Positions 3,742-41,329 of a DNA stretch of 42,356 nt are shown here, one piece after another. Positions within the stretch are counted from its first letter, which is position 1. The number at the start of each line of letters is the position of its first letter. The stretch is taken from NCBI GenBank assembly GCA_019747375.1, contig JAIEQX010000031.1, forward strand, positions 1-42,356, written 5' to 3'. The DNA is from Beijerinckiaceae bacterium. Lineage in GTDB: Bacteria; Pseudomonadota; Alphaproteobacteria; Rhizobiales; Beijerinckiaceae. Below the pieces are notes generated by a model. That model ran no database searches. It was given only the letters and a program-made list of their open reading frames with translations, and had not been told where the DNA came from. Both the position numbers and the translations under genes were made by a program.

Positions 3742-4834
3742 TGTCACTGAGAACTGACCCAGCCACGATAGGTGTTTGATCCCACGGTTTGATGGTGCGA
3801 TCCTTTCTCTGGAATGGAAGGACGCCCTTTGGGACAAATTCGTCATGGCAGCGCCACGACCACGCACGCTGTCCGAGCAGCAATACAGCGATCGCAAGCT
3901 TCGCTCGCGCAGTTGAGCCGTGAGTTGGGTATCAATCCCAAGACCGTTGCGAAGTGGCGCAAGCGCGCGACGGTCGAGGATATGAAGACGGGGCCTTCTG
4001 AGCCTCGATCTACCGTGCTGACCGAGGCTGAGGAGGCAATGGTCGTTGCATTCCGGCGCCATACACTGCTGCCACTGGACGATTGCCTTTACGCTCTGCA
4101 GCCTTCGATCCCCCACCTGACGCGATCTGCGCTGCATCGCTGTCTGCAGCGACATGGCATCTCGCGCTTGCCTGATATGGAAGGCGACAAGCCGAAGCGG
4201 TCGAAGTTCAAACGCTACCCCATAGGGTTCTTCCATATCGATATCGCCGAGGTGCAAACCGCTGAAGGCAAGTTATATTTGTTCGTTGGCATCGACCGGA
4301 CGAGCAAGTTCGCCGTGACCCAACTCGTCGAGAAGGCCGACAGAAAAACAGCCTGGGAGTTCCTTCAGCACCTGCTCGAAGCCGTGCCCTACCAAGTCCA
4401 TACCATTCTCACCGATCGAGCCATTGGAACGCCATTGGTCCGAGAGACAATGGCGAGGGGAATCCAGTTCGCAGAGCAGCCCCGGAATCGGAATACCATC
4501 TACTCTCGGCCGATGCGCTTCGACATGATCTGCGAGGCAAACGGCATCGAGCACCGGCTGACCAAGCCCAACCATCCCTGGACCAATGGTCAGGTCGAGC
4601 GCATGAACCGCACGATCAAGGACGCCACCGTTAAGCGCTTCCACTATGACAGCCACGATCAGCTGCGCACGCACCTCAGCGACTTTATGGCCGCCTACAA
4701 CTTCGCACGCAGACTCAAGACCCTCAACGGGCTCACCCCCTACGAATACATCTGCAAGATCTGGACATCAGAGCCGGACAGATTCATCCTCAATCCGATC
4801 CACCAGATGCCGGGACTGAACACCTAGCGATACC
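3742..4834 (+). mobile_element. IS481-family insertion sequence, right end apparently missing
   Basis: The left end starts TGTCACTGAGAACTGACCC at 3742, the usual IS481-family terminal repeat. One transposase gene fills the element. The matching inverted copy expected just past the transposase stop (about 4828-4860) is absent. Instead the sequence passes directly into the middle of a DUF1513 reading frame. An adjacent deletion that removed the right end and the front of that gene is the simplest explanation. Confidence 0.7.
3814..4827 (+). CDS. IS481-family transposase
   Basis: A 337-residue DDE transposase. Residues ~20-50 form a helix-turn-helix typical of the family (LSRELGINPKTVAKWRKR). 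The integrase core (rve) follows: a catalytic Asp in FFHIDIAEV, a second Asp in HTILTDRA, and Glu in the region NGQVERMNRTIKD. Length is normal for the family. Homologues usually begin at the MGQ-like residue, which here would be a TTG at 3829, so the true start may be 15 bases downstream of the ATG at 3814. The gene is intact, although the element may be immobile because its right end was not found. Confidence 0.9.
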   Translation: MEGRPLGQIRHGSATTTHAVRAAIQRSQASLAQLSRELGINPKTVAKWRKRATVEDMKTGPSEPRSTVLTEAEEAMVVAFRRHTLLPLDDCLYALQPSIPHLTRSALHRCLQRHGISRLPDMEGDKPKRSKFKRYPIGFFHIDIAEVQTAEGKLYLFVGIDRTSKFAVTQLVEKADRKTAWEFLQHLLEAVPYQVHTILTDRAIGTPLVRETMARGIQFAEQPRNRNTIYSRPMRFDMICEANGIEHRLTKPNHPWTNGQVERMNRTIKDATVKRFHYDSHDQLRTHLSDFMAAYNFARRLKTLNGLTPYEYICKIWTSEPDRFILNPIHQMPGLNT

Positions 4835-5518
4835 AGCGAGGGTGTCATTGGTGTCTGGGACGCAGCCGGTGGCTATACCCGTTACGATGAATTCCCCAGC
4901 GGCGGGATCGGCCCCCATGACCTGCGCCTGATGCCCGACGGTGACACGCTGGTCGTCGCCAATGGCGGCATCGCCACGGACCCGACCGATCGTCGCAAGC
5001 TGAACGTTCCGGCGATGAGACCGAACCTGACATATCTCTCGCTATCGGGATCGACCCGGGAGCAGGTCGAACTGGAGGACGACCTTCGTCAGAACTCCAT
5101 CCGCCACCTTGCGGTGCGGCACGACGGCCTCGTCGGCTTCGCGATGCAAAGGGAAGGCGAGCCCGGCAGCGCAACTCCGCTGCTCGGATTGCACCGCATG
5201 GGCAACGCCCCGCTTCTGGCGGAAGCGCCGATCGCCGATGAACTCGCGATGCAGGGCTATGCCGGCAGTGTCGCATTCAGCGGCGATGGCAGCGAGATCG
5301 CTATCACCTCGCCCCGGGGCGGCCGGGTGCACAGGTTCTCCGACGATGGCGTCTTCCTTGCGGCCCTATCTCGAGCGGATGTCTGCGGCCTTGCGCCAAT
5401 GGACCGCGGCTATCTTGCAAGCGACGGGCTGGGCGGGCTTATCTCGATCAGCACCACAGTTCCTACACCGCTCGCCCGGGCAGATTGTGCGTGGGACAAC
5501 CACATTGTCGCACTCTGA
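4835..5518 (+). pseudogene. DUF1513-family protein, 5'-truncated by the IS481 element
   Basis: Downstream of the transposase stop the frame reads EGVIGVWDAAGGY and continues through motifs I associate with DUF1513: FPSGGIGPHDL, VVANGGIATDP, IRHLAV, GSVAF, SPRGGRVH and a final WDNHIVAL. About 227 residues survive; intact members are near 350-370 and begin with an export signal. No proper start remains, although an ATG at 4931 lies inside the domain. In related bacteria DUF1513 genes often sit with imelysin-type iron-uptake genes, which are absent here. The role of the family is not established. Confidence 0.7.
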
Positions 5519-5669
5519 GAGAGTTGAGGCGGTGCCAAAGGCCAGCGTCCGGTACAGGGCGCTAGCAGATGCTCAGGACGAACTCGACGAAGGCGTATCC
5601 GGGCGAACCACCAAGAGGTAGTTCCGCAGCCTTGCCATTGACCGTTCCGCGATTCTGGCGCACGAAGGA
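5519..5669. other. Intergenic stretch before riboswitch 1
   Basis: No gene is seen. It must hold the promoter of the riboswitch-controlled cbtB transcript, but I cannot pick a convincing -35/-10 pair. Confidence 0.3.
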
Positions 5670-5860
5670 TGCGTGATCGGTTCCACCCCGTCTTGGGGCG
5701 GAGGCAAGAGGGAACGCGGTGGGGTGCCAGATGGCACCGAACCCGCGGCTGTCCCCGCAACTGTGAGCGGCGAGTCCGGCTGACGATGCCACTGGAGTGA
5801 TCCGGGAAGGCCAGCCAGGGCGGCGAACCGCGAGCCAGGAGACCTGCCGGTCCTGAACGA
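5670..5860 (+). promoter_or_regulatory. Cobalamin riboswitch 1 (upstream of cbtBA)
   Basis: The conserved blocks of the AdoCbl riboswitch are in order: AGAGGGAACGCGGTG near 5708, GCGGCTGTCCCCGCAACTGTGAGC-type core near 5745-5770 (seen in two adjacent pieces), CCACTG near 5790, GGGAAGGCC near 5803, and the B12 box AGCCAGGAGACCTGCC at 5833-5848. It lies 41 bases upstream of cbtB. Binding of adenosylcobalamin would shut off cobalt uptake when B12 is plentiful. Confidence 0.95.
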
Positions 5861-5870
5861 AATCCACAAG

Positions 5871-5896
5871 GCCTTCGGGTGTGAAGGCAAGGAGGG
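5871..5896 (+). promoter_or_regulatory. Hairpin next to the cbtB ribosome binding site
   Basis: GCCTTC (5871-5876) pairs with GAAGGC (5883-5888) around GGGTGT, immediately followed by AAGGAGGG, the Shine-Dalgarno site of cbtB. It may be part of the riboswitch expression platform acting on translation, as there is no T-run for termination. Confidence 0.45.
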
Positions 5897-5900
5897 AAAA

Positions 5901-6077
5901 TTGAACACGCGGAACGTCACCAATGCACAGGCATCGACAGGATCGGGGATCGGCGCGCTTGTCGCCGTCGCGCTGATCGGCCTCAGCATCATCTTCGTCA
6001 CCGGCCATGTGCAGGCCGAAACGCTTCACGACGCGGCGCATGACGTGCGCCACGCCACCGGCTTTCCCTGTCACTGA
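5901..6077 (+). CDS. cbtB: CbtB, small membrane subunit of cobalt uptake
   Basis: A 58-residue protein starting at TTG 5901, 4-5 bases after a strong AAGGAGGG site. It has one transmembrane helix (residues ~16-35) and ends with the CbtB signature DVRHATGFPCH, where His and Cys may contact metal. CbtB is an accessory subunit found with CbtA in cobalamin-riboswitch-controlled loci and predicted to import cobalt. It lies directly after riboswitch 1 and four bases before cbtA. No ATG start fits; TTG with this ribosome site is the only plausible start. Confidence 0.85.
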   Translation: MNTRNVTNAQASTGSGIGALVAVALIGLSIIFVTGHVQAETLHDAAHDVRHATGFPCH

Positions 6078-6081
6078 GCCC

Positions 6082-6783
6082 GTGTTCACGCGTCTTCTGA
6101 CCAGCGCCCTGTTTGCTGGCGCTGCCGCCGGGCTGATTGCCGCCCTGTTGCAGCTTTATTTCGTGCAGCCCGTGCTGCTCCATGCCGAACTCTACGAGGG
6201 TGGCGATCTCGTCCATTTCGGAACCGAATCCACCAACTCGGCGCATCCGGACCTGCCGGGCTTCGACGCAGTGCGCGACATTCTCAGCATCGGTTTCACG
6301 ATGCTGGTCTATGCGGGCTATGCGATGATCCTCGTGGCCCTGATGGCCGCGGCCGAAAACCGGGGGGCAACGATCAACGCGAGGACCGGTCTGATCTGGG
6401 GCCTCCTCGGCTTCGTGGCCGCGCATTTCGCGCCGGGCTTCACGCTGGCGCCCGAAGTGCCCGGCGTGGCGGCCGCCGACGTCTATGCACGGCAGGCGTG
6501 GTGGTTCGCGACGGTGCTCGCCGCGGCTATCGCCATGTGGCTGATCGCGTTCGGGCGGAACTGGGCGGCCTGGGGGGCAGCGATCGTGCTGCTTCTGGCA
6601 CCGCATGTCGTCGGCGCGCCCGAACCTGACGTCTTTACCGGCCCGGTTCCGACGGAGATCGGGGCGCTCTTCGCCGCTCGCGCCTATGGCGTAGGGATGG
6701 CGGCCTGGGTGATGCTCGGTGGGTTCGCGGGCTATTTCTGGTCGCGCGAGGCCGCCACGGCTCGCCAGACGCAGACCGCCTGA
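6082..6783 (+). CDS. cbtA: CbtA, cobalt uptake membrane protein
   Basis: A 233-residue integral membrane protein with about five hydrophobic helices. The N-terminus (FTRLLTSALFAGAAAGLIAA) and the following QPVLLHAELYE segment are characteristic of CbtA. The GTG at 6082 is chosen because it sits four bases after the cbtB stop and begins right at the conserved first helix; an in-frame ATG at 6007 would lie inside cbtB. With CbtB it is predicted to bring in cobalt for corrin synthesis. Control should come from riboswitch 1. Transport of cobalt is family-level prediction. Confidence 0.9.
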   Translation: MFTRLLTSALFAGAAAGLIAALLQLYFVQPVLLHAELYEGGDLVHFGTESTNSAHPDLPGFDAVRDILSIGFTMLVYAGYAMILVALMAAAENRGATINARTGLIWGLLGFVAAHFAPGFTLAPEVPGVAAADVYARQAWWFATVLAAAIAMWLIAFGRNWAAWGAAIVLLLAPHVVGAPEPDVFTGPVPTEIGALFAARAYGVGMAAWVMLGGFAGYFWSREAATARQTQTA

Positions 6784-6851
6784 GCAAACCGTGCTTCGAG
6801 ACGGTTCGGGCGGCCACTGGGTGCGCCCGAACCATCCCTTCGGATATCATC

Positions 6852-7340
6852 ATGGACCGATCCATACCTCTCCTGCTCATCGGGCTCGTCTTCGGCGGAT
6901 GCATCGGCTTCGCCGTCGCGGCGTCGAACGGCATAACCCTCGACGGCCACGATCATGCCGACAACGCCCATCACGAAGGCCACACCGGCTCTGACGTTCA
7001 TGACCACGGCGCGATGCTGAACCTGCCTGCCGAAGCCTCGGCGCCTACGCTCGACCTGCATCTCACGCCCGACCCCTCTTCCGGCTGGAACCTCCACATG
7101 GTGACGGAGAACTTCGCCTTCTCGCCCCGGAACGCCAGCCTTGCCCACATCCCCGGAGAAGGGCATGCCCATGTCTACATCGATGGCGTGAAGCTCGGCC
7201 GGTTCTACGGGCCCTGGGTGCACCTCGACAACCTGCCGGAGGGCGACGTGACAGTCGAGGTCACGCTCAACGCCAACGATCACCGGCTCCTCGGCGTGAA
7301 TGGGCGGCCGCTCTCCGAAACCGTCACGATCGCCAACTAG
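6852..7340 (+). CDS. Histidine-rich periplasmic metal-binding protein of unknown family
   Basis: A 162-residue protein. Residues ~5-25 are a hydrophobic export signal or anchor (a Cys follows Gly-Gly, but the lipobox is weak). Residues ~32-53 are very rich in His and Asp (repeats such as GHDH, AHHEGH, DVHDHG), a likely divalent-metal sponge. The rest looks like a small beta-sandwich with conserved-looking HAHVYIDG, YGPWVHLDNLP and LNANDH motifs. It lies 68 bases after cbtA on the same strand and probably shares its riboswitch-controlled transcript. A role as periplasmic cobalt trap feeding CbtAB is inference. I do not recognise the family with certainty. Confidence 0.7.
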   Translation: MDRSIPLLLIGLVFGGCIGFAVAASNGITLDGHDHADNAHHEGHTGSDVHDHGAMLNLPAEASAPTLDLHLTPDPSSGWNLHMVTENFAFSPRNASLAHIPGEGHAHVYIDGVKLGRFYGPWVHLDNLPEGDVTVEVTLNANDHRLLGVNGRPLSETVTIAN

Positions 7341-8560: not shown

Positions 8561-9287
8561 CCTCGCCTCCGATCTCGGCCAGCGAGCCGTAGAAGATCAG
8601 CGCGGGCAACGGCCCCGGATCGGCCGCCAGCCGTGCCGCAAGCGTGGAGACGGTGCCGCGCGACAGCACCTGTTCGGGCTTGCCGACCGCCTCGGCCAGC
8701 AGCGCCGAGGTGTCCCCCGGCAGGCCGCGCGCGATCAGCGCCTCGGCGAGGGCCGCGAAGGTGCGCTTGCCCATGAAGACCACGGTGCAGGCCAAAGGGT
8801 CGGCCAGCGCGTCGAGGTTCAGGTCTTCGGGCAGGCGCCCATCCACATCGTGCCCGGTCACGAACTGTACGCGCCGCGCGGTCAGGCGGCGGGTCAGCGG
8901 GATGCCCGCGGCAGCGGCGGCAGCGAGGGGCGAGGCCACGCCCGGCACGATCTCGTAGGGAATGCCGGCCTCGTGCAAGGCCACGAGTTCCTCCTCCAGC
9001 CGCCCGAAGAGCCCGCCATCGCCGGATTTCAGCCGCACGATCCGCCCACCACCTTGCGCGTAGTCCACGAGGAGGCGGCTGACGTGATGCTGCTTGGGCG
9101 AGGGTCGCCCGGCCCGCTTTCCGACGCTCACGAGGTCCGCGCCCGGGCGCGCATGGGACAGGATCGGACCGGCCGAAAGGTCGTCGTAAAGCACCGCATC
9201 GGCGTGCTTGAGCCGATCGAGCGCCTTCAGCGTCAGAAGCTCCGGATCGCCGGGGCCAGAGCCCACGAAGCTCACGAACCCGGTCAT
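8553..9287 (-). CDS. cobA: Uroporphyrinogen-III C-methyltransferase (SUMT)
   Basis: A 244-residue tetrapyrrole methylase with the classic N-terminus FVGSGPGDPELLT (residues ~7-19), then YDDLS, the SGDGGLFGR block and the VPGVASPLAAAAAAGIPLT motif. It adds methyl groups at C2 and C7 of uroporphyrinogen III to make precorrin-2, the branch point to B12 and siroheme. There is no CysG-type oxidase or ferrochelatase domain, consistent with a dedicated B12 enzyme. The ATG at 9287 overlaps the cobB stop by four bases. Confidence 0.94.
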   Translation of the reverse strand: MTGFVSFVGSGPGDPELLTLKALDRLKHADAVLYDDLSAGPILSHARPGADLVSVGKRAGRPSPKQHHVSRLLVDYAQGGGRIVRLKSGDGGLFGRLEEELVALHEAGIPYEIVPGVASPLAAAAAAGIPLTRRLTARRVQFVTGHDVDGRLPEDLNLDALADPLACTVVFMGKRTFAALAEALIARGLPGDTSALLAEAVGKPEQVLSRGTVSTLAARLAADPGPLPALIFYGSLAEIGGEGA

Positions 9288-10621
9288 GTGTCTTCGCCCG
9301 CGATGAGGTGAAAGAAGGTGCCGGTCACGTGTCCGCGCCGCGATCCGGTCTCGGGCACCGGGTTGCCATCGGCATCGGCCACGTCCGCCAGCGCCTCGTC
9401 GGGTTGCTCGAGGATGGTAGAGTAGTGGAACTCGTGGCCGCGCAGTGCAGCGCCCGCCGTCTGCCCCGGCATGGGGGCGCGCAGGACGGCGCGGCGATAA
9501 CCGAGGTGAAACTTGCGTTTCTCGTAGGATGTGACGAGGCCCAGAAGGCCCGCCATCTCGTGTCGGACCCCGTCCTTGTCGATCAGCACCTGGCCAAGCG
9601 CCATGTATCCCCCGCACTCGCCATGAACGGGGCGCGTTTCGGCGTGCCGCCGCAGCCCATCGCGGAATCGCGCCGCTGCGGAGAGACGCCCGGCATGAAG
9701 CTCGGGGTAACCTCCGGGAAGCCAGACCAGATCGGCGGATGGATCGGGCGGCTCGTCGCCCAGAGGCGAAAAGGGCAGGATTTCAGCCCCTGCGGCCCGC
9801 CAACCCTCCAGAAGATGCGGGTAGGTGAAGGAAAACGCCGCGTCCTGCGCCAGCGCGATGCGCTGCGCGGGTGGCTTGGGAAGCGAACCCGCGCCGCCCG
9901 CCGCGGTTCCGCGCGCGGCAGCCCGGATCGCCGAAAGATCGACATGCGCTCGCAGGAAGGCCGCGTAGCCCGCGATGGCGGCGTCGAGGTCCGGATGTTC
10001 CACCGCCTGCACGAGGCCCAGATGACGCTCGGGCAGGGTCAGATCACCCCGCCGGGGCAACGCACCAAGAACGGGCAGGCCCGCGCGCTCCATCCCGAGG
10101 CGGGTGAGCCGTTCGTGCCTGGGGCTCGCAACGCGGTTCAGGATCACGCCCGCGAAGGGCAGGCCCTCGTCATAGCGGGCGAAGCCGAGCGCGGTGGCCG
10201 CCGCCGACTGCGCCTGTCCGCCGACGTCGAGGACCAACACCACCGGCCAAGCCATCCTTCGCGCAGTCTCGGCGCTCGACCCGAAGCCGCTGCGCCCCCG
10301 CGTCGCGACACCATCGAAAAGGCCCATGCTCCCTTCCGCCACGCAGATGTCCGTGCCACAGGCCTGCGCAGCGATGGTCGCGAAGAGCGCCTCCCCCATC
10401 GCCCAGGTATCGAGGTTGAACGATGCGCGCCCTGTGGCGGCCCGATGGAAGGCGGGGTCGATGTAGTCGGGGCCGGACTTGAAGGGCTGTACGGTCAGCC
10501 CGTCGTCGGAGAGTGCACGGAGAAGGCCCAGCATCACGGTCGTCTTGCCCGTGCCCGAAGCCGGGGCCGAGACGAGCAGCCCAGGGGGGAAGGCCCCGCC
10601 GTTGGACACCGTGTCAGTCAT
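9284..10621 (-). CDS. cobB: Cobyrinate a,c-diamide synthase
   Basis: A 445-residue two-domain enzyme. The N-terminal P-loop [10 protein letters not shown] is at residues ~19-28, with [10 protein letters not shown] after it, and a C-terminal class-I glutamine amidotransferase domain carries the nucleophile Cys in [11 protein letters not shown] (about residue 336) and a His near the end (TFFHLIAG). It amidates the a and c side chains; in the aerobic pathway the substrate is hydrogenobyrinic acid. The ATG at 10621 puts the start eight bases inside cobM. Longer in-frame readings add only non-conserved residues. It overlaps cobA by four bases downstream. Confidence 0.93.
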
Positions 10622-32924: not shown

Positions 32925-32981
32925 TCAGGGTCGTAGCAGGGCGGCGCAGCCGCGATCCTGCGATCCTGAATGGAGCCGATC

Positions 32982-33563
32982 ATGACCAACCTCACCGACA
33001 CGCAACTCATCGTCCTTAACGCGGCCGCGCAACGCGCGACGCTCATCGCCCTGCCGCTGCCGCCGAACCTGAAGGGCGGCGCCGCGCACAAGGTTGTCCA
33101 TCCCCTGATTGAAAAAGGTCTGCTCGAAGAGATCGACGCCGATCGCCGCCTGGGCGAGCCCCTGTGGCGCGAAACTGGCGATGGTCACGGGGTCACCCTC
33201 GCCATCACGGAGGCCGGCCTCGCAGCTCTTGGCATTACGGCCGACAGCGCGCCACAGGCGGCCGACGGCGGCGAAGTTGCGGTCGAGGCGAGCGACGCTG
33301 CGCCAACTCCTGAAAGCCCGCCAGCGGCCGCGACAGAGGCTCCGGCGCGCAAGGTCCGGGACGGCACGAAGCAGGCGGCTCTGATCGACATGCTGCGGTC
33401 GCCCGACGGCGCCACGATCGCCGAGATCGCCGCCGCCACCGGTTGGCTAACCCACACGGTTCGCGGCGCCATCGCGGGAGCGCTGAAGAAAAAGCTCGGG
33501 CTCGAAGTGGTGTCCGAGAAGATCGAGGCGCGCGGCCGGGTCTACAGGCTGCCGCACGCTTGA
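32982..33563 (+). CDS. DUF3489-domain protein
   Basis: A 193-residue protein. Residues 1-90 contain a winged-helix-like region (TDTQLIVLNAAAQRATLIALP), then an Ala/Pro/Glu-rich linker, then a C-terminal DUF3489 domain with TKQAALIDMLRSPDGATIAE, ATGWLTHTVRGAIAGALKKK and GRVYRL. Such proteins are frequent in alphaproteobacterial prophages and mobile islands; a DNA-binding role is likely from the fold. ATG 32982 is preferred over the ATG at 32970 by the usual MTNLTDTQ start. A strong terminator follows. Confidence 0.8.
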   Translation: MTNLTDTQLIVLNAAAQRATLIALPLPPNLKGGAAHKVVHPLIEKGLLEEIDADRRLGEPLWRETGDGHGVTLAITEAGLAALGITADSAPQAADGGEVAVEASDAAPTPESPPAAATEAPARKVRDGTKQAALIDMLRSPDGATIAEIAAATGWLTHTVRGAIAGALKKKLGLEVVSEKIEARGRVYRLPHA

Positions 33564-35503: not shown

Positions 35504-35696
35504 GACGCGCCTCCTTTTGCGAAGGCCGGGGGCCATAGAGCTTTTCACCGAGCTGACGAACCAGTTCGCGCTCGGGCCATGTCAGACGCTGATCATCGGC
35601 GGAGATTGCAAGGAGACCCTGTTCACGCCAGCCCTCGCGCTTGACCTGTTCGGGATCGCGACGCTTGCCGCCAAAGCCATAGGGCGCCCACCTCAT
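35496..35696 (-). CDS. Small phage protein (66 aa)
   Basis: A 66-residue basic protein, MRWAPYGFGGKRRDPEQVKR at the start, then ISADDQRLTWPERELVRQLG and a Lys/Arg-rich end. No domain is recognised. It overlaps the RuvC-like gene by four bases (ATGA) and the DUF6362-like gene by eight, so it is firmly part of the block. Confidence 0.65.
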   Translation of the reverse strand: MRWAPYGFGGKRRDPEQVKREGWREQGLLAISADDQRLTWPERELVRQLGEKLYGPRPSQKEARHG

Positions 35697-36232
35697 GCGA
35701 CGCCCCCGCTGGTCTCGAGCGCCCAGAGCAGGATCGCGATGGGGTCCGCCTCGTTGTCGTCTGCTGGGGTGAACCCGCGCGCGCGCACCGCCGCGATGAC
35801 GGCAGCCTTGTCAGGGTTGCCGCGGCCAGTGACATGACGCTTGATCGTGCCGACCGGCGCGCCCTGATAGGCGACGTCGTGTTGCTCGCACCACGCGGTC
35901 AGCGTCGCCAGGAAGCCGCCGTAGAGATGCGCGGCGTCCGTGCCGATGTGCCGACGCACTTCCTCGAAATGAATGGACGATAGCGGGCCGGCGTCCCTGG
36001 CGAGCTGATCGAGCCAGGCGCGGAAGCGGACATAGCGCATGCCGCCGCCGTCATAGCGGCTCGGCCGGAATGACACCACGCCGCTGGTGATCAGGCCATC
36101 GGCGGTGCCCAGCGCCCAGCCGGTGCTCGTGCCCAGATCAAGGGCGAGAATCGCGGCCTGCGCCGAGCCAGGCATGGAGATCGCGGGCGGGCTTGCAATG
36201 GCGGCAGGCAGAGTCAGAGTCGTCGAAGCCAT
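35693..36232 (-). CDS. RuvC-like Holliday junction resolvase (phage type)
   Basis: A 179-residue RNase H-fold protein. Catalytic-type acids are visible: Asp32 in ALDLGTSTGW, Glu90 in IHFEEVRRH, and Asp158-Asp163 in ADDNEADPIAIL. The Lys/Arg-rich loop GTIKRHVTGRGNPDK is also typical. It would cut branched DNA during phage recombination or packaging. ATG 36232 has GGAG 9-10 bases upstream. A hydrophobic, low-conservation N-terminal extension of ~25 residues precedes the domain. Confidence 0.8.
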   Translation of the reverse strand: MASTTLTLPAAIASPPAISMPGSAQAAILALDLGTSTGWALGTADGLITSGVVSFRPSRYDGGGMRYVRFRAWLDQLARDAGPLSSIHFEEVRRHIGTDAAHLYGGFLATLTAWCEQHDVAYQGAPVGTIKRHVTGRGNPDKAAVIAAVRARGFTPADDNEADPIAILLWALETSGGVA

Positions 36233-36358: not shown

Positions 36359-39286
36359 TCATGGATCGAGCTCCGTCAGCCAATTGGGACGTGGTGAGGG
36401 TTGTGAGCCTTCGCTTCGAGGCTCACACGCAGGCTCACAGACGCAACTTCCGGAATTCATTTTGTTTTGTGAGCCTTGTGAGGCTTGTGAGCCTTTTTCC
36501 GTCTCTTTCTTCATGGGCGCGTGCGTGCGCGCGTGCGTAAGGGTTGAAAGAGGCTCACAAGGCTCACAAGGCTCACATTCTGTTTGCATATCAGCGGCTT
36601 GCGCGTGTGAGCCTCTGTCGTAGAGGCTCACACGCATATCCAGAGGCTCACACGCTTGTTGTCCCGGATCAGCAGGTCTGGAGGGGGTCGTCTCTTCGAA
36701 GAACTCGAGTTTCCACTTCACGGCCCGGCGGAACGTGCCGGCTCTGACGAGACGCAAGCTCAGATCGCCGACGCGAAACACCCGGTCGCGCATTTTCTTG
36801 ATCGATATACCGAAGCTGGTCTTGCGGGCCTGATCGTTGTGACCAGTTATTGGCGGCGCCGGATCGCAGAACAGGACAACGTCAAAGAGATCCGCCGCGG
36901 CGACGTCGGCCGTGCCGAACCTGTCCCACCAGGCGGCAATGAACGCACTCCACGCGTTTCCCTCCGCGTCGGACGCCTCCATCATCTCGTCCAGGTTGCT
37001 CAGAAAACCTTCGACACCAGCGATCTCGAGAACGCCGCCGATGACATGGCCCCAGTTCTCGAACGAGCCGATGATCTTTGCGCCGCGCGGGCGTCCAGCC
37101 GCAATCCAGGCCTGGCACAGCGTGAGGCAGGCGGCGACAAGGCGAGGGCGGTTTGCGCGAACCCATGACATCAGGTCGGGATGACGGAACCCTGTGCGCT
37201 GCCAGGGACGCTCGACATGCGCGTCGAGGCGAATGCGCACGAGGCGGCGCGCCATCTCGTTTGAGAACTCCGGGTTGTTGCCGGTTGCGATCCAGAGGCA
37301 GCGGATCGGCAGCCGCGCCATCTCGGACGCCCCGAGGATGCGGTCCTCCCAGAATGGCGCGGTGAGAGCGGCTGCGACGGCCGCGCTATCGAGTTTGTTG
37401 CGCAGATTGTCGATCAGTACGATGGACGGGATCTGGCGCAGCTTTGCAGTCACGCGTTTGCGCCATTCCTCGTCATCGCGTCCCTCCGTCATGACGCTGG
37501 CGCCGGCGCCTGTGAGGATCGTGGCGATCGCGTCGACCATCAGCGTGGCGCCCGAGCCGGGCGTCGGCTTCTCGATCAGATGCAAAGGCGTCGGCCCATC
37601 AATCATGCCGCGCAGAAAGCCGAGCAACAGGAGGGCGACGGCGTGCGCGCGCTCGGCTGAACCGACGAAGGGGAAGTCGCCAAGGAGATCGTCACAGATG
37701 AGGGTGCGCGCGGCGGCCACTTCGAGCGGCGATGGTCTGGTGGGGACGGCAGGAACAGCGAACCCCGGCGCCGGGACATAGAGCAACCGAGCGTCGGGAT
37801 GGTAGCCGGGCGCTGTGATGAGCGTTCCGTTGCGGCCGAACACTGGCGTGTTCACGATCCCCACGAGGACAGGGAGCGCCGGATCGGGCGTGGCAAGAAC
37901 GGATTTGACAACGGCCACGGGTGGCGGCGCCGGCGTCAGTTCGCCCTTGGCGTTCAGACGGACCCAGCGGGCCAGTCGCGCCAACATGTGGCGGAGCCGT
38001 TCCTCATTGATCGTGGTTGCAACCGGGCGGCCCTCATCATCCGGCACAACCCATGTCGGCTGTCCGGCAAAACGGAAGATCCATGGCGTGCGGTTGGAGG
38101 CCATGAGCAGACTCCAGACCTGCTCGCTGGCGCGGGCGAGATCGCCCTCGTCGGCTCGCAGCACCGGCGCCGCGTCGCTGCGACCTTGATAATTGAGGGG
38201 CCGGTGCTGACCGACCTGCAGAACGGCCTCTGGTTCGACGGCAGTTTGCGCGTCGGCGATTGCCCGGACGACGGCGTCAGGTCCGTCGCGCAGCAGCAGG
38301 TCGTTGAAGTCCTCGCCCTCTTTCGGCGGCAGCGCGATGGCCGTGTCGCGGCCCTGCGAACGCAGTCGCCGGGCGGCAGCCAGCGCCGCGCGAAGACCGG
38401 CGCCTGACTCATCGTGATCTGCGAGGATCAGAACACAGCGGACGCCTGGCGGCAGGTCGATCTGCTCGAGCCCGGAGGTCGACAGCGTCGCCCAGACCGG
38501 CAAATGGGGACAGGCCGTCATCACCGCGAGTCCCGTCTCTATGCCCTCGCAAAGCGCGAGGCGATCGCCATCGCCGATCGGACCGAGCCGCACCGCGCCC
38601 CCAGCGACGCGGCCCAGCATCTTCTTCGGCTTCATGACGCGCGCTTTGGAGACCGACGCACCCTCGATCGCCAGATACGTGCGGTGCAGGCCTATCGCGG
38701 CGCCGTCGCGGTCGCGGACCGGCCCCAGCAGGGCCGGATAACCGGTCTTCGTCTCCCAATGGGTCAGGTCGGGATGGAAGAGAAGATCGGCGGCTTCCGG
38801 GACGCTCAGGCCGCGCCCGCTGAGATATCGCTCGGCCGGCGAGCCCGTGATTGGCTGCGCGCCAGAAAGAATGTGCGCGATCTCGAGTGCTGCTTCGCGT
38901 TTGATTGGCGGCGGCACAGTCGGCGCGCGCCGTTCCGGCGCCCCGGGCGCGACGCCCGCCATGTCGGCGGCCTCGATGATCAGCGCGCGCCCGTCGAGCC
39001 CGGTTGCTTCCTCGATCGCGCTGATCGGTCCACCACCCTGGTTGCCGTCGAAATCGATCCAGTCGCCCGCGTGCGGCCCCCGCAACGTGATGACGCAGGA
39101 GCCCGTGTTGCGCGGCGCGTCGCCCCGGATGTTGGCCAGCCGCCATTCATCGCCCGAACGGCGCCCATTCGGAAACAGACGAGGAACCCAGTTGTCGGCG
39201 GTTTCTCGCAAACGGGCGACAACAAGGTCGAGATCGTAATGCAGGGGCTCGCCGCCGAGCGGTTTGGCGTCATTGAGGTCAAGCAA
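36359..39286 (-). CDS. Phage DNA primase-helicase (Toprim domain plus ATPase-like domain)
   Basis: A 975-residue multidomain protein. Residues ~1-120 resemble a CHC2-like primase N-terminal region (WVPRLFPNGRRSGDEW). Residues ~235-330 hold a Toprim domain (Glu247 in ALCEGIETGLA; Asp290 and Asp292 in LILADHDESGAG). Residues ~510-800 resemble a phage helicase/ATPase with IEKPTPGSGATLMVDAIAT in place of a standard P-loop and the sensor-like WIATGNNPEFSNE. The last ~100 residues are low complexity, with CEP and GSQ repeats encoded by DNA repeats. It starts at TTG 39286, overlapping the helicase stop by eight bases. It makes primers and probably unwinds phage DNA. Confidence 0.85.
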   Translation of the reverse strand: MLDLNDAKPLGGEPLHYDLDLVVARLRETADNWVPRLFPNGRRSGDEWRLANIRGDAPRNTGSCVITLRGPHAGDWIDFDGNQGGGPISAIEEATGLDGRALIIEAADMAGVAPGAPERRAPTVPPPIKREAALEIAHILSGAQPITGSPAERYLSGRGLSVPEAADLLFHPDLTHWETKTGYPALLGPVRDRDGAAIGLHRTYLAIEGASVSKARVMKPKKMLGRVAGGAVRLGPIGDGDRLALCEGIETGLAVMTACPHLPVWATLSTSGLEQIDLPPGVRCVLILADHDESGAGLRAALAAARRLRSQGRDTAIALPPKEGEDFNDLLLRDGPDAVVRAIADAQTAVEPEAVLQVGQHRPLNYQGRSDAAPVLRADEGDLARASEQVWSLLMASNRTPWIFRFAGQPTWVVPDDEGRPVATTINEERLRHMLARLARWVRLNAKGELTPAPPPVAVVKSVLATPDPALPVLVGIVNTPVFGRNGTLITAPGYHPDARLLYVPAPGFAVPAVPTRPSPLEVAAARTLICDDLLGDFPFVGSAERAHAVALLLLGFLRGMIDGPTPLHLIEKPTPGSGATLMVDAIATILTGAGASVMTEGRDDEEWRKRVTAKLRQIPSIVLIDNLRNKLDSAAVAAALTAPFWEDRILGASEMARLPIRCLWIATGNNPEFSNEMARRLVRIRLDAHVERPWQRTGFRHPDLMSWVRANRPRLVAACLTLCQAWIAAGRPRGAKIIGSFENWGHVIGGVLEIAGVEGFLSNLDEMMEASDAEGNAWSAFIAAWWDRFGTADVAAADLFDVVLFCDPAPPITGHNDQARKTSFGISIKKMRDRVFRVGDLSLRLVRAGTFRRAVKWKLEFFEETTPSRPADPGQQACEPLDMRVSLYDRGSHAQAADMQTECEPCEPCEPLSTLTHARTHAPMKKETEKGSQASQGSQNKMNSGSCVCEPACEPRSEGSQPSPRPNWLTELDP
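36402..36655. repeat. Iteron-like cluster of TGTGAGCCT/AGGCTCACA repeats inside the primase gene
   Basis: Eleven exact copies and one single-mismatch copy of the 9-mer TGTGAGCCT occur in both orientations at 36402, 36419(r), 36431(r), 36468, 36477(mismatch), 36486, 36551(r), 36560(r), 36569(r), 36606, 36624(r) and 36644(r). GCGTGTGAGCCTC (36603-36615) and GAGGCTCACACGC (36623-36635) form a perfect 13-bp hairpin with a 7-base loop; GAGGCTCACACGC recurs at 36418 and 36643. An alternating purine-pyrimidine GC tract lies at 36518-36538. In protein the copies read CEP, GSQ or GSH. Confidence 0.85.
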
Positions 39287-40562
39287 GGATCACCAGACCT
39301 TTCTCGGCCCGCGTGATCGCGGTGTAGAGCCAGCGGTTGCGGTCGGCGGCAGTGCGGCCAAAACCGTCGTCGAAAACGATGACGTTCTCCCACTGAGAAC
39401 CTTGCGACTTGTGACAGGTGATGGCGTATCCCCAACCGGTCTCGATCAGCCCGCGCCGGATCTGCCATTCGCGCCGGCCGCGTTCGGGATCGAAGGCGAC
39501 ATGATCGGCATATTCGCCGCGCCAGAAATTCTGACGGCCCGCGACGCTGGCGCCGTCCTCGGTTTCGACCATGGCGCTGAAGGCGAAGGCGTCATGCGGG
39601 TCCTGGCGCACATCGGTGAGCGTCAGGAACATGCCGTTGATCAGCCCGAGATCGTGGCGGTTCTTCAGGCAGATGATCTTCTCGCCTGCGCCCGACGGAT
39701 AATCGGCCTCGAAACCTGCGGCCCGCTTCATCGCGGTGTTGAGCCAGCGGCGGGTTGTGTTGGCGCCGCAGATCACCTGGCCGCCCTGCAGCATCTGCGC
39801 AGGACCGACCTGGCGACGCGACATTTTCCAGACATGCGCGTCATGCGCGCCAGAGGGGATCGGCAAGCCTTCGCGGGCCAAGGTCGCCAGCCGCAGGATA
39901 GCGCTGTCGCCCGCCTGCCTGTGCACCTCCGTCAACATCACGTCGGGGGCCGCTTCGGTGAAAAATCCCTGGCCCTTGATCGGCGGCAGCTGGCCGGGAT
40001 CGCCGAGCACCAGGATCGGCTTGCCGAACGCCAGCAGATCGTGGGCCATGTCAGCGCCAACCATCGACACCTCGTCGAGCACCAGAAGGTCCCCGTCGCG
40101 CAGGATCGATTGTTCGTTGATCAGGAATTTCGGCTGGTGAATGTCCTCGAGACGCAATTCCAGTTGCGCTGTCCGTGTCATCGCAAACTGACGTTCAGCC
40201 GGGCCCATGCGCGGCAGGTCGCGCCGGAGCGCCGCGAGATCCTGCGTCACCCGCGCGATTTCCTCGGGCGTCGCCTCGGAGACGCGGTAGATCAGGCTAT
40301 GGATCGTCTGCGCGGGCGTGCCCTTGCGCGTCATGACGAGCGCGGCCTTGCCGGTGAAGGCGGCGAAGAGCACGCCGCCGAGACCGCCGGGCGTCATGGG
40401 TTCAAGCCCGAGCGCTTCGATGGCCATGGCGGTGATCGTGGTCTTGCCGGTCCCCGCATAGCCGAAGAGACGGAAAACCTGCTGCTCGCGCGTGCGGGTG
40501 CGAAACCAGGTCTCGATTGCGGCAATCGCTACGGCCTGCTGTTGAGAGGGAACAAAGCTCAT
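39279..40562 (-). CDS. Dda/RecD-like phage DNA helicase (AAA ATPase)
   Basis: A 427-residue superfamily-1B helicase. Walker A GYAGTGKTTI is at residues 34-43, motif Ia AAFTGKAALV follows, Walker B is LLVLDEVSMVG, then VLGDPGQLPPIKG (motif III) and the late AITCHKSQGSQW plus YTAITRAEKGL (motifs V and VI). These are typical of Dda or RecD2-type 5'-3' helicases in phage replication modules. Start ATG 40562 overlaps the nuclease gene upstream by four bases. The end overlaps the primase start by eight bases. Confidence 0.9.
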   Translation of the reverse strand: MSFVPSQQQAVAIAAIETWFRTRTREQQVFRLFGYAGTGKTTITAMAIEALGLEPMTPGGLGGVLFAAFTGKAALVMTRKGTPAQTIHSLIYRVSEATPEEIARVTQDLAALRRDLPRMGPAERQFAMTRTAQLELRLEDIHQPKFLINEQSILRDGDLLVLDEVSMVGADMAHDLLAFGKPILVLGDPGQLPPIKGQGFFTEAAPDVMLTEVHRQAGDSAILRLATLAREGLPIPSGAHDAHVWKMSRRQVGPAQMLQGGQVICGANTTRRWLNTAMKRAAGFEADYPSGAGEKIICLKNRHDLGLINGMFLTLTDVRQDPHDAFAFSAMVETEDGASVAGRQNFWRGEYADHVAFDPERGRREWQIRRGLIETGWGYAITCHKSQGSQWENVIVFDDGFGRTAADRNRWLYTAITRAEKGLVILA

Positions 40563-41329
40563 CGCTCTCCCTCCCAGCAGCGGCGCGCATAGGCGCACAT
40601 GCGGCAGAGATAGAAGTCCCGGGCTGCGGCGATCCGCGGTGGGAGCTCGCCGGCTGCCGCGGCGCGCAGGATATCGACGGCCTTGTCGGACAGCGCCTGC
40701 GCGCAGGGCGGATCGAACCCGACCACCTCGTGGTGGAGCGCCTCGGTGTCCTTGTTGAGCGCCGTGACGAGGGCGGTCTCCAGCTCCAGGTAGCCCATGT
40801 AGAGCTGGACCTGCGCGAAGTAGACCGGCTTGGAGGCGCACAAGCCACGCTTGACCAGGTCGTTCCAGGATTTGGCGTTGAGCGCCTTGTGCTCCCAGAG
40901 CACGGGCCAGCGCAGACCGACGTCGGGGCCGGCGACGATCACGCCGTCGATGTGGCCGCGCAGTTTGCCGCCCGCCGCCTCGAATCCGAATTGTCCGCCG
41001 TCGGCGCGCTCGGTGCGAAGGTCGAAGCCCGCGCCGCGCAGCCAGCTGATGGAGAGCGTCTCGAACTGGTGGCCGGCGTCGAAGATGCGCAGGATCGCGC
41101 CATCGAAATCCCGTCCCTCATCCTTGGGCGTATGGGTCACCTCGTAGACGAGCTTGCGCGCGCAGGGCTCGCCGATCCGGCTGCCGCCGAGATAGTCGCG
41201 CGGCTGCTGCCGCCGATTGCGTGCGACGAGCGCCACATCGATCAGCGCATTAACTCTATCGGACACGCCGATCGCGTGGCCGATGCGGCCATAGACGAAG
41301 CCGGAGCCGTGGTTGAGATCGACGATCAT
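40559..41329 (-). CDS. Cas4/RecB-like PD-(D/E)xK nuclease with predicted iron-sulfur cluster
   Basis: A 256-residue nuclease. Active-site pattern: GHIDGVI (Asp128) and LWEHKALNAKSW (Glu146, Lys148). Four cysteines in Cas4/AddB style: Cys56 in GEPCARK, then Cys242, Cys245 and Cys251 near the C-terminus (LCRMCAYARRC). It likely processes DNA ends in phage recombination together with the helicase encoded next. No CRISPR array or cas1/cas2 is nearby, so it is a stand-alone phage nuclease. It overlaps both neighbours by four bases. Confidence 0.85.
   Translation of the reverse strand: MIVDLNHGSGFVYGRIGHAIGVSDRVNALIDVALVARNRRQQPRDYLGGSRIGEPCARKLVYEVTHTPKDEGRDFDGAILRIFDAGHQFETLSISWLRGAGFDLRTERADGGQFGFEAAGGKLRGHIDGVIVAGPDVGLRWPVLWEHKALNAKSWNDLVKRGLCASKPVYFAQVQLYMGYLELETALVTALNKDTEALHHEVVGFDPPCAQALSDKAVDILRAAAAGELPPRIAAARDFYLCRMCAYARRCWEGER

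Follow-up and report, generated by a model that had tools for sequence, protein, structure and literature searches.

The question raised by this locus is why the 3' coding part of a primase gene should hold a dense cluster of one short DNA repeat. The window, meaning the whole stretch of 42,356 nucleotides analyzed here (contig JAIEQX010000031.1 of a Beijerinckiaceae bacterium, assembly GCA_019747375.1), contains a Toprim primase gene of 975 codons (36359-39286, minus strand), in which eleven exact copies and one one-mismatch copy of the 9-mer TGTGAGCCT lie between 36402 and 36652. An earlier note on this DNA had described the cluster as iteron-like and offered three readings of it: a replication origin, an initiator-binding site or a recombination hot spot. 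We hold with fairly good confidence that the array is the replication origin of a phage or prophage, set in the part of its own initiator gene that encodes a disordered 3' tail, and read by the C-terminal domain of the primase.

The exact copies are found at 36402, 36468, 36486 and 36606 on the plus strand and at 36419, 36431, 36551, 36560, 36569, 36624 and 36644 on the minus strand, while the mismatched copy is at 36477 (plus), giving the order ++-+++---++- when read along the gene strand. Only 0.23 copies of TGTGAGCCT would be expected by chance in the whole window, and none of 100 shuffles reached eleven. The count thus bears out the earlier description of eleven exact copies and one near copy within 251 bases, in both orientations, and the two head-to-tail triplets of period 9 that it mentioned are also there: three exact iterons at 36551-36577 (minus strand) and, in the opposite orientation, a triplet at 36468-36494 (plus strand) whose middle copy is mismatched (TGTGAGGCT). 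The inverted triplets enclose a 56-bp center (36495-36550), and the alternating GC tract noticed earlier falls here, as an alternating purine/pyrimidine run of 23 bp at 36517-36539. A+T-enriched spacers of 28 bp (36440-36467 and 36578-36605) separate the triplets from the outer iterons, which occupy 36402-36439 on one side (36402 plus, 36419 minus, 36431 minus) and 36603-36652 on the other (36606 plus, 36624 minus, 36644 minus). The latter segment also bears a perfect inverted repeat (36603-36616/36622-36635, the pairing with the shortest loop); a perfect hairpin had been reported correctly, with arms given as 13 bp that measure 14 bp. All copies lie within the primase reading frame and, as previously noted, are translated without stops as CEP, GSQ/GSH or VSL. 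No second cluster was found when the window was scanned for exact and one-mismatch copies.

Throughout the 3.45 Mb host assembly the 9-mer occurs 20 times, eleven times in the array and as nine singles on nine other contigs, and close pairs in the same direction are confined to the array. The 27-base triplet is present in one of 397 genomes of the order, namely its own. On these counts we rejected a small repeat dispersed across the host, the counter-case that the earlier note had proposed to examine by a genome-wide count.

To see what is constant in this arrangement we compared it with loci of related primases drawn from IMG/VR and GTDB contigs, the viral scans covering the nearest relatives (the best 80 of 165, 218, 100 and 120 relatives in four scans). 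The first set comprised 158 loci with a complete domain and tail, corresponding to 119 distinct tails with the window included, after 12 loci whose match ended before the end of the domain and 8 with too little tail had been left out. Iterons in this set, and in the unseen set described below, were called as a 9-mer forced to the pattern NG[T/G]G[A/G][A/G]NNN, with copies accepted within one mismatch. At least seven copies of a single 9-mer are present in 117 of the 119 tails; the other two lack a full array (L183 has one diverged copy, L171 has three). The sequence of the repeat is far from constant: the 117 arrays use 28 consensi, TGTGAGCCT being the consensus in 12 of the 119 tails and 27 others serving the remaining 105 arrays. 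What is kept is the layout. In 105/117 loci oppositely oriented tandem arrays stand face to face, the window's further spacing (a single site 37 bp outside each triplet, on both sides) recurs exactly in 72/117 loci representing 13 consensi, and the commonest copy orders are ++-+++--++- (19 loci), ++-+++---++- (18 loci, the order of the window) and ++-+++---++-- (14 loci).

Counting repeats in 101 tails without the forced pattern recovered the same repeats, except that a CG tract won in three (L061, L078 and L098) or the register was one base off, and the best tail repeat exceeded all 20 codon-order shuffles in 100 of the 101, L159 being the exception. Inside a locus the copies agree at 0.88-1.00 per base (1355 copies, a value biased upward because copies were pre-selected within one mismatch of the consensus), while loci differ among themselves; the iteron sequence changes between loci in nearly all copies and in both orientations together. 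The unforced caller also found an array, with 8-17 copies, in every one of 32 further tails that have no 60-mer in common with the first set.

Taken at the level of sequence, this comparison shows that selection acts on the DNA of the array, because the arrangement is kept while the 9-mer and the peptides it encodes change. The tail peptides vary by iteron type (CEP, GEP, GGP, GER, ECGEC, CEV and GED). At base 6, which is mostly synonymous, A occupies 176 of 177 TGTGANCCT sites from 17 TGTGAACCT loci, and G occupies 96 of 126 sites in the 12 TGTGAGCCT loci. Some arrays even outlive the reading frame: L065/L132 (L132 being an isolate, Pseudoponticoccus marisrubri) have a stop that ends the tail after its first half, and L061 loses the frame, yet in these loci the array goes on, either in place or two bases out of register. 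L106 has an early stop and keeps 11 copies. L061 and L106 are metagenome contigs in which sequencing error is possible. Selection on DNA rather than protein, as the earlier note had supposed, is thus borne out, and the outcome that it had named as contrary, repeats absent from relatives with the peptide conserved, is the reverse of what the relatives display. It had also asked whether the 9-mer is conserved among relatives: the array is there in 117/119 tails, with the sequence changing as a set.

We next looked for the part of the primase that varies along with the iteron. For this comparison 112 of the 119 tails were used, representing 111 distinct proteins (L043, L170, L174 and L214 were dropped for a short open frame, L096 because it has 7 copies, and L171 and L183 were also dropped). 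When windows along the primase were compared with iteron type, six overlapping windows within residues 781-860 gave partial rank correlations of 0.46-0.57 with the rest of the primase controlled; outside this stretch the highest value was 0.23, and across all 84 windows the median was 0.004. Co-change of residues and bases on a tree of residues 1-780 likewise placed 39 of the 40 strongest pairs at residue 790 or beyond, the fortieth being N630. The pairings read almost as a code. Among the 111 proteins, A at base 6 occurs with R or K at 819 (74/74) and G with other residues (36/37); C at base 7 goes with T823 (82/82) and other bases with I, V or A (27/29); and at base 8, G is paired with K827 (34/36), C with neither K nor R (62/62) and A or T with K or R (13/13). 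Base 5 is A with A855 (87/90) and G with T, S or V at 855 (21/21), and base 3 is G with H853 (65/65) and T with RR, QG or QR at 853-854 (43/46). The seven code residues correlate with the iteron at 0.81, random sevens of other domain residues reach at most 0.54, and the other domain residues fall to 0.016 once the seven, which were chosen on the same data, are controlled.

A separate model of residues 755-868 (mean predicted local distance difference test score, pLDDT, 85) shows three helices followed by three strands that include a hairpin wing, and we place the putative reader of the iterons, a winged-helix-like domain, at codons 790-868 (36683-36919, minus strand). Its predicted recognition helix (codons 818-831, 36794-36835) contains residues 819, 823, 824 and 827, which follow bases 6, 7 and 8; 819, 823 and 827 are spaced i, i+4, i+8 and so share one face of the helix. 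Residues 853-855, which follow bases 1, 3 and 5, lie at the tip of the predicted wing (codons 842-862, 36701-36763), which is flanked by strands 842-852 and 855-862. Covariation in sequence alone therefore singled out one face of a helix and the tip of a wing in the model.

Physical linkage is disfavored as the source of the covariation. The RuvC-like resolvase gene that adjoins the array (35693-36232, minus strand; phrog_159), which served as a linkage control, lies downstream of the array in 107/111 loci, yet over the same 103 of the 111 loci its product tracks the iterons at 0.17 against 0.65 for the C-terminal domain. Within the domain, synonymous distance gives 0.13 and amino-acid distance 0.63.

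The code also carried over to loci outside the set from which it was taken. Of 253 loci taken for this purpose, 12 had no match to the core query, 10 failed at the core end and 16 failed on length, leaving 215; these gave 117 distinct tails, of which 85 share a 60-mer with the first set and 32 are new, and 30 of the new ones (28 distinct domains) were scored. Correct calls numbered 30 at base 6, 28 at base 7, 27 at base 8, 29 at base 5 and 29 at base 3, compared with 24, 17, 7, 26 and 24, respectively, when the majority base of the first set was applied to the same 30 tails. When the iterons were called again without the forced pattern, the readings of two tails (L377 and L461) came to agree with the code; the numbers above are from the forced caller as run. 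The two unscored tails, L290 and L323, were mis-called by the forced pattern and were read by hand. L290 has mostly GTGACC-type iterons, with C at base 6 opposite Q819 and G or C at base 8 opposite I827, and L323 has A or C at base 2. Recognition of the 9-bp iterons by the primase C-terminal domain is strongly supported by this covariation, which makes the primase's own domain the likely reader of the sites in the array.

The center of the array has a signature of its own, which we followed in 104 of the 111 loci. The inverted triplets are separated by 56 bp in 59/104 and by 62 bp in 24/104, and the alternating purine-pyrimidine run within (median 28 bases among the relatives, 23 in the window) is longer than in every other gene window of the same size in 94/104 loci. 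Codon choice in the center follows this alternation: a purine occupies the third position in 240 of 256 Ala codons (0.94, against 0.46 in the gene), 144 of 145 Thr codons (0.99 against 0.48), 38 of 38 Val codons (1.00 against 0.45) and 4 of 178 Arg codons (0.02 against 0.34), counts that come from related loci and are not independent draws. The center is selected at synonymous sites for purine/pyrimidine alternation. The run might form Z-DNA, a guess based on its alternation. Mean A+T in the center is 0.40 compared with 0.32 in the gene, whereas the spacers outside the triplets, 28 bp long in 79/100 loci on one side and 61/71 on the other, reach 0.53 and 0.55. The spacers resemble one another among several iteron types, AAANNCAGANRCTTAYG recurring in some examples (an uncounted impression), and might be where a second factor binds.

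How such an array might work can be sketched from these parts. On the comparative evidence the predicted recognition helix reads bases 6-8 through residues 819, 823 and 827 and the wing tip reads bases 1, 3 and 5 through residues 853-855. Primase molecules would occupy both inverted triplets as well as the outer sites. The inverted triplets would thereby make two initiator groups confront each other across the center, and the alternating core, the two A+T-enriched 28-bp spacers or both might give way under supercoiling, and the Toprim domain, with the neighboring superfamily 1 (SF1) helicase, would then start replication. Because the initiator domain and its sites are in one gene they travel together, and selection would change the residues that set specificity together with almost every iteron copy. 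We infer the opening, the priming and the origin function from the precedents of P4 and the phage-inducible chromosomal islands (PICI) discussed below, and the part given here to the alternating core is likewise putative. The original suggestion of an origin or initiator-binding site is accordingly supported by covariation as regards binding, and made likely by analogy as regards origin activity.

Several observations weigh against this interpretation. The Walker A lysine is replaced by alanine in 45/45 aligned primases (the stretch G-x-G-A-T at codons 577-581, 37544-37558 in the window), so that melting of DNA by the primase itself is uncertain and another helicase, perhaps the SF1 gene product, may open the DNA; the ATPase part of the primase family may be inactive or unusual. 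The C-terminal domain is called winged-helix-like only from its predicted topology, and compared with PDB folds it gave no match with E up to 0.001. The forced caller fixes bases 2 and 4 by construction, and the two unseen tails read by hand depart from it; the code residues were picked as the strongest pairs in the same data, hypergeometric values for co-change ignore branch lengths, and other pairs score as well, e.g., 847 with base 6, 849 and 851 with base 7, and 808 and 813 with base 8. The best other segment of the primase, 625-702, tracks the iterons at 0.28. The unseen tails are relatives of the first set, and at base 8 a constant guess of non-C is right in 23/30 of them, so that 27 correct calls is a modest gain. 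When the code was tried on P4 alpha by a by-eye alignment, the wing motif QG resembled that of the GGTGAACGT loci and the helix residues did not fit. The sign of GC skew shifts only weakly, from a mean of about -0.03 upstream to about +0.02 downstream of the array (56 of 111 loci with enough flank), and the bins adjoining the array are strongly opposite (+0.07 and -0.12); we discarded skew as a sign of an origin, since these bins run the wrong way and coding bias confounds it. Finally, that the contig is phage is suggested by relatives in viral contigs and by few PHROG matches.

What the array is for could be read in other ways. Reader and site are what covariation reveals, not the consequence of their meeting, and the primase domain might bind the array for control only, by autorepression, handcuffing or copy control, with replication starting elsewhere; in P4 the same repeats are borne by ori and by the separate cis region crr, so an array 3' of a primase can be accessory. 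We think this rather unlikely: the primase gene starts about 2.6 kb upstream of the array, the window scan turned up no second cluster, and inverted triplets around a conserved center look built for opening. That the array is instead a centromere-like, packaging or recombination site of some other phage protein would fit the RuvC-like gene next door in 107/111 loci. The weak tracking of the iterons by its product (0.17 against 0.65), in the one other phage gene compared, leaves the recombination hot spot of the earlier note without support, and we judge a site of this kind very unlikely.

Explanations that do without a DNA-binding reader fare worse still. Slippage or gene conversion could neutrally spread one 9-mer through a dispensable tail, and the tail is indeed disordered (pLDDT below 50 for 865-965) with a tandem period of 9 that equals three codons. 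Such homogenization sits badly with spacers and an arrangement that are kept while the repeats change, with copies in both orientations, with seven residues that track the iteron (partial 0.81 against 0.016 for other domain residues, on the same data) and with the prediction of unseen tails by the code, and it strikes us as highly improbable. Selection on the encoded peptide, for instance on CEP/GSQ repeats as a protein-binding tail, has in its favor the nearly invariant C-terminal P-W-L motif (P967, W969 and L970). We give it the least credence of all, as the peptides change with iteron type, synonymous sites are constrained and the array outlives the frame in L065/L132, L061 and L106.

The coding-embedded primase origin that we favor has partial counterparts in known systems. 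In the relevant part of the account of P4 alpha (PMC4234260), a winged-helix domain binds the origin repeats, after which the protein unwinds and primes. The end of P4 alpha matches structure 1KA8; alpha spans 4636-6969, its type 1 repeats GGTGAACA lie directly 3' of the gene with crr at 4291-4590, and further repeats are found in ori (9086-9809). The likeness lies in a primase with a C-terminal domain that, here judging from covariation, binds DNA, and in short repeats in both orientations at the 3' end of the primase, those of P4 being 8-bp type 1 repeats with 9-bp tandem pairs; GGTGAACA and the GGTGAACGT loci have GGTGAAC in common. The crr of P4, however, is outside the alpha gene and has a second set in ori, whereas here a single 12-site array lies inside the coding region around a purine-pyrimidine alternating center. 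In PICI/SaPI (the latter Staphylococcus aureus pathogenicity islands), as PMC6092414 describes, two iteron sets stand after the initiator gene on either side of an A+T-rich presumed melting site, and pri-rep-ori maintains a plasmid. An initiator gene with two iteron sets around a presumed melting site is common to both systems, but the PICI origin is 3' of the initiator gene and A+T-rich in the middle, and here the array is coding, its middle alternates and contains G/C, and the A+T-enriched parts are the lateral spacers, the center having only 0.40.

An intragenic iteron origin is known from phage lambda, in the O gene at ori-lambda, as stated in the part of PMC3985674 that treats it. There too the iterons are inside the coding sequence of the initiator, while here the putative initiator is a primase without a lambda O-type match in Pfam or PHROG, and 9-bp iterons are arranged in inverted triplets in a disordered 3' tail. 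RepA of the PICI-like elements (PLE) provides the precedent for an initiator DNA-binding domain that covaries with its iterons, according to the pertinent passage of PMC8263062; in that case modules are swapped among few alleles with iterons of about 30 bp, whereas we see base-by-residue changes over 111 distinct proteins, with synonymous controls against module swapping. No description of the present arrangement was found in a search of the open-access literature with narrow terms. Intragenic iteron origins, 3' primase origins and initiator-origin covariation are thus known, and what would be new is a primase origin embedded in coding sequence, whose core alternates and whose recognition code can be read. 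We lean, with some hesitation, towards regarding it as an undescribed class of phage origin, contained entirely in the 3' coding tail of a primase that is also its reader, in which a Z-DNA-prone alternating core between inverted 9-bp triplets replaces the A+T-rich melting region and specificities arise along a base-by-residue code through coordinated change rather than module swapping.

Origins are known to fit their initiators, but it can seldom be seen how the two evolve and still fit; in this primase family their co-evolution can be followed base by base. The 28 iteron types in 117 tails and the few residues that track them amount to a code, for an initiator of winged-helix-like type, that can be put to the test. 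The family also shows that the peptide of a protein tail can be set by functional sites in the DNA, and that an origin can be overlooked when it is annotated as coding. Should the alternating core serve in melting or in sensing supercoiling, it would be unlike the A+T-rich elements at which origins usually unwind.

The primase gene, whose TTG start was assumed as the first start after a stop, encodes DUF7146 and Toprim_3 domains (Pfam), a degenerate P-loop region, the C-terminal winged-helix-like domain and the disordered iteron-coding tail, and it has PHROG DNA-primase matches. The predicted structure is DnaG-like at the front, poorly predicted in the middle (pLDDT below 50 in much of 564-691) and winged-helix-like to about 865, followed by the disordered tail; the 29 best matches in a full-length fold search are primase structures of the DnaG, T7 and T4 types. 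The C-terminal domain had no match among PDB sequences at E up to 1. Directly upstream is the SF1 (Dda-like) helicase gene (39279-40841, minus strand; Pfam and PHROG).

An array of the same kind was observed in one of 24 remote loci scanned. L033, a remote helicase (about 33% identical) encoded in a different genome of this order, bears an in-frame 3' array of its own at 931-1193 (the same region as L473 1133-1395), with eight exact copies of CCTATGCC in both orientations, including a triplet of period 9. The P-loop of L033 is GAGKG, with the lysine kept, unlike the G-x-G-A-T of the primase family. In a viral scan made with L033 no relative was confirmed, and no such array is present in three relatives found among 199 genomes (L474-L476) or in L472, the RpAliso locus. 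Given L033, the hidden in-gene arrangement may be wider than this primase family.

As would be expected for a phage, the primases of relatives occur in viral contigs as well as in Paracoccus and Jannaschia; among the best matches listed, the closest include those of Paracoccus and Jannaschia (80-81% identical) and others from viral contigs. PHROG matches were obtained for 6 of 30 other long open frames tried, many of them on the wrong strand, one to a neck-type protein and one to a transposase. The same contig also carries a transposase-like gene at 3814-4827 (plus strand; phrog_8463) and a gene for a DUF3489 protein at 32970-33563 (plus strand).

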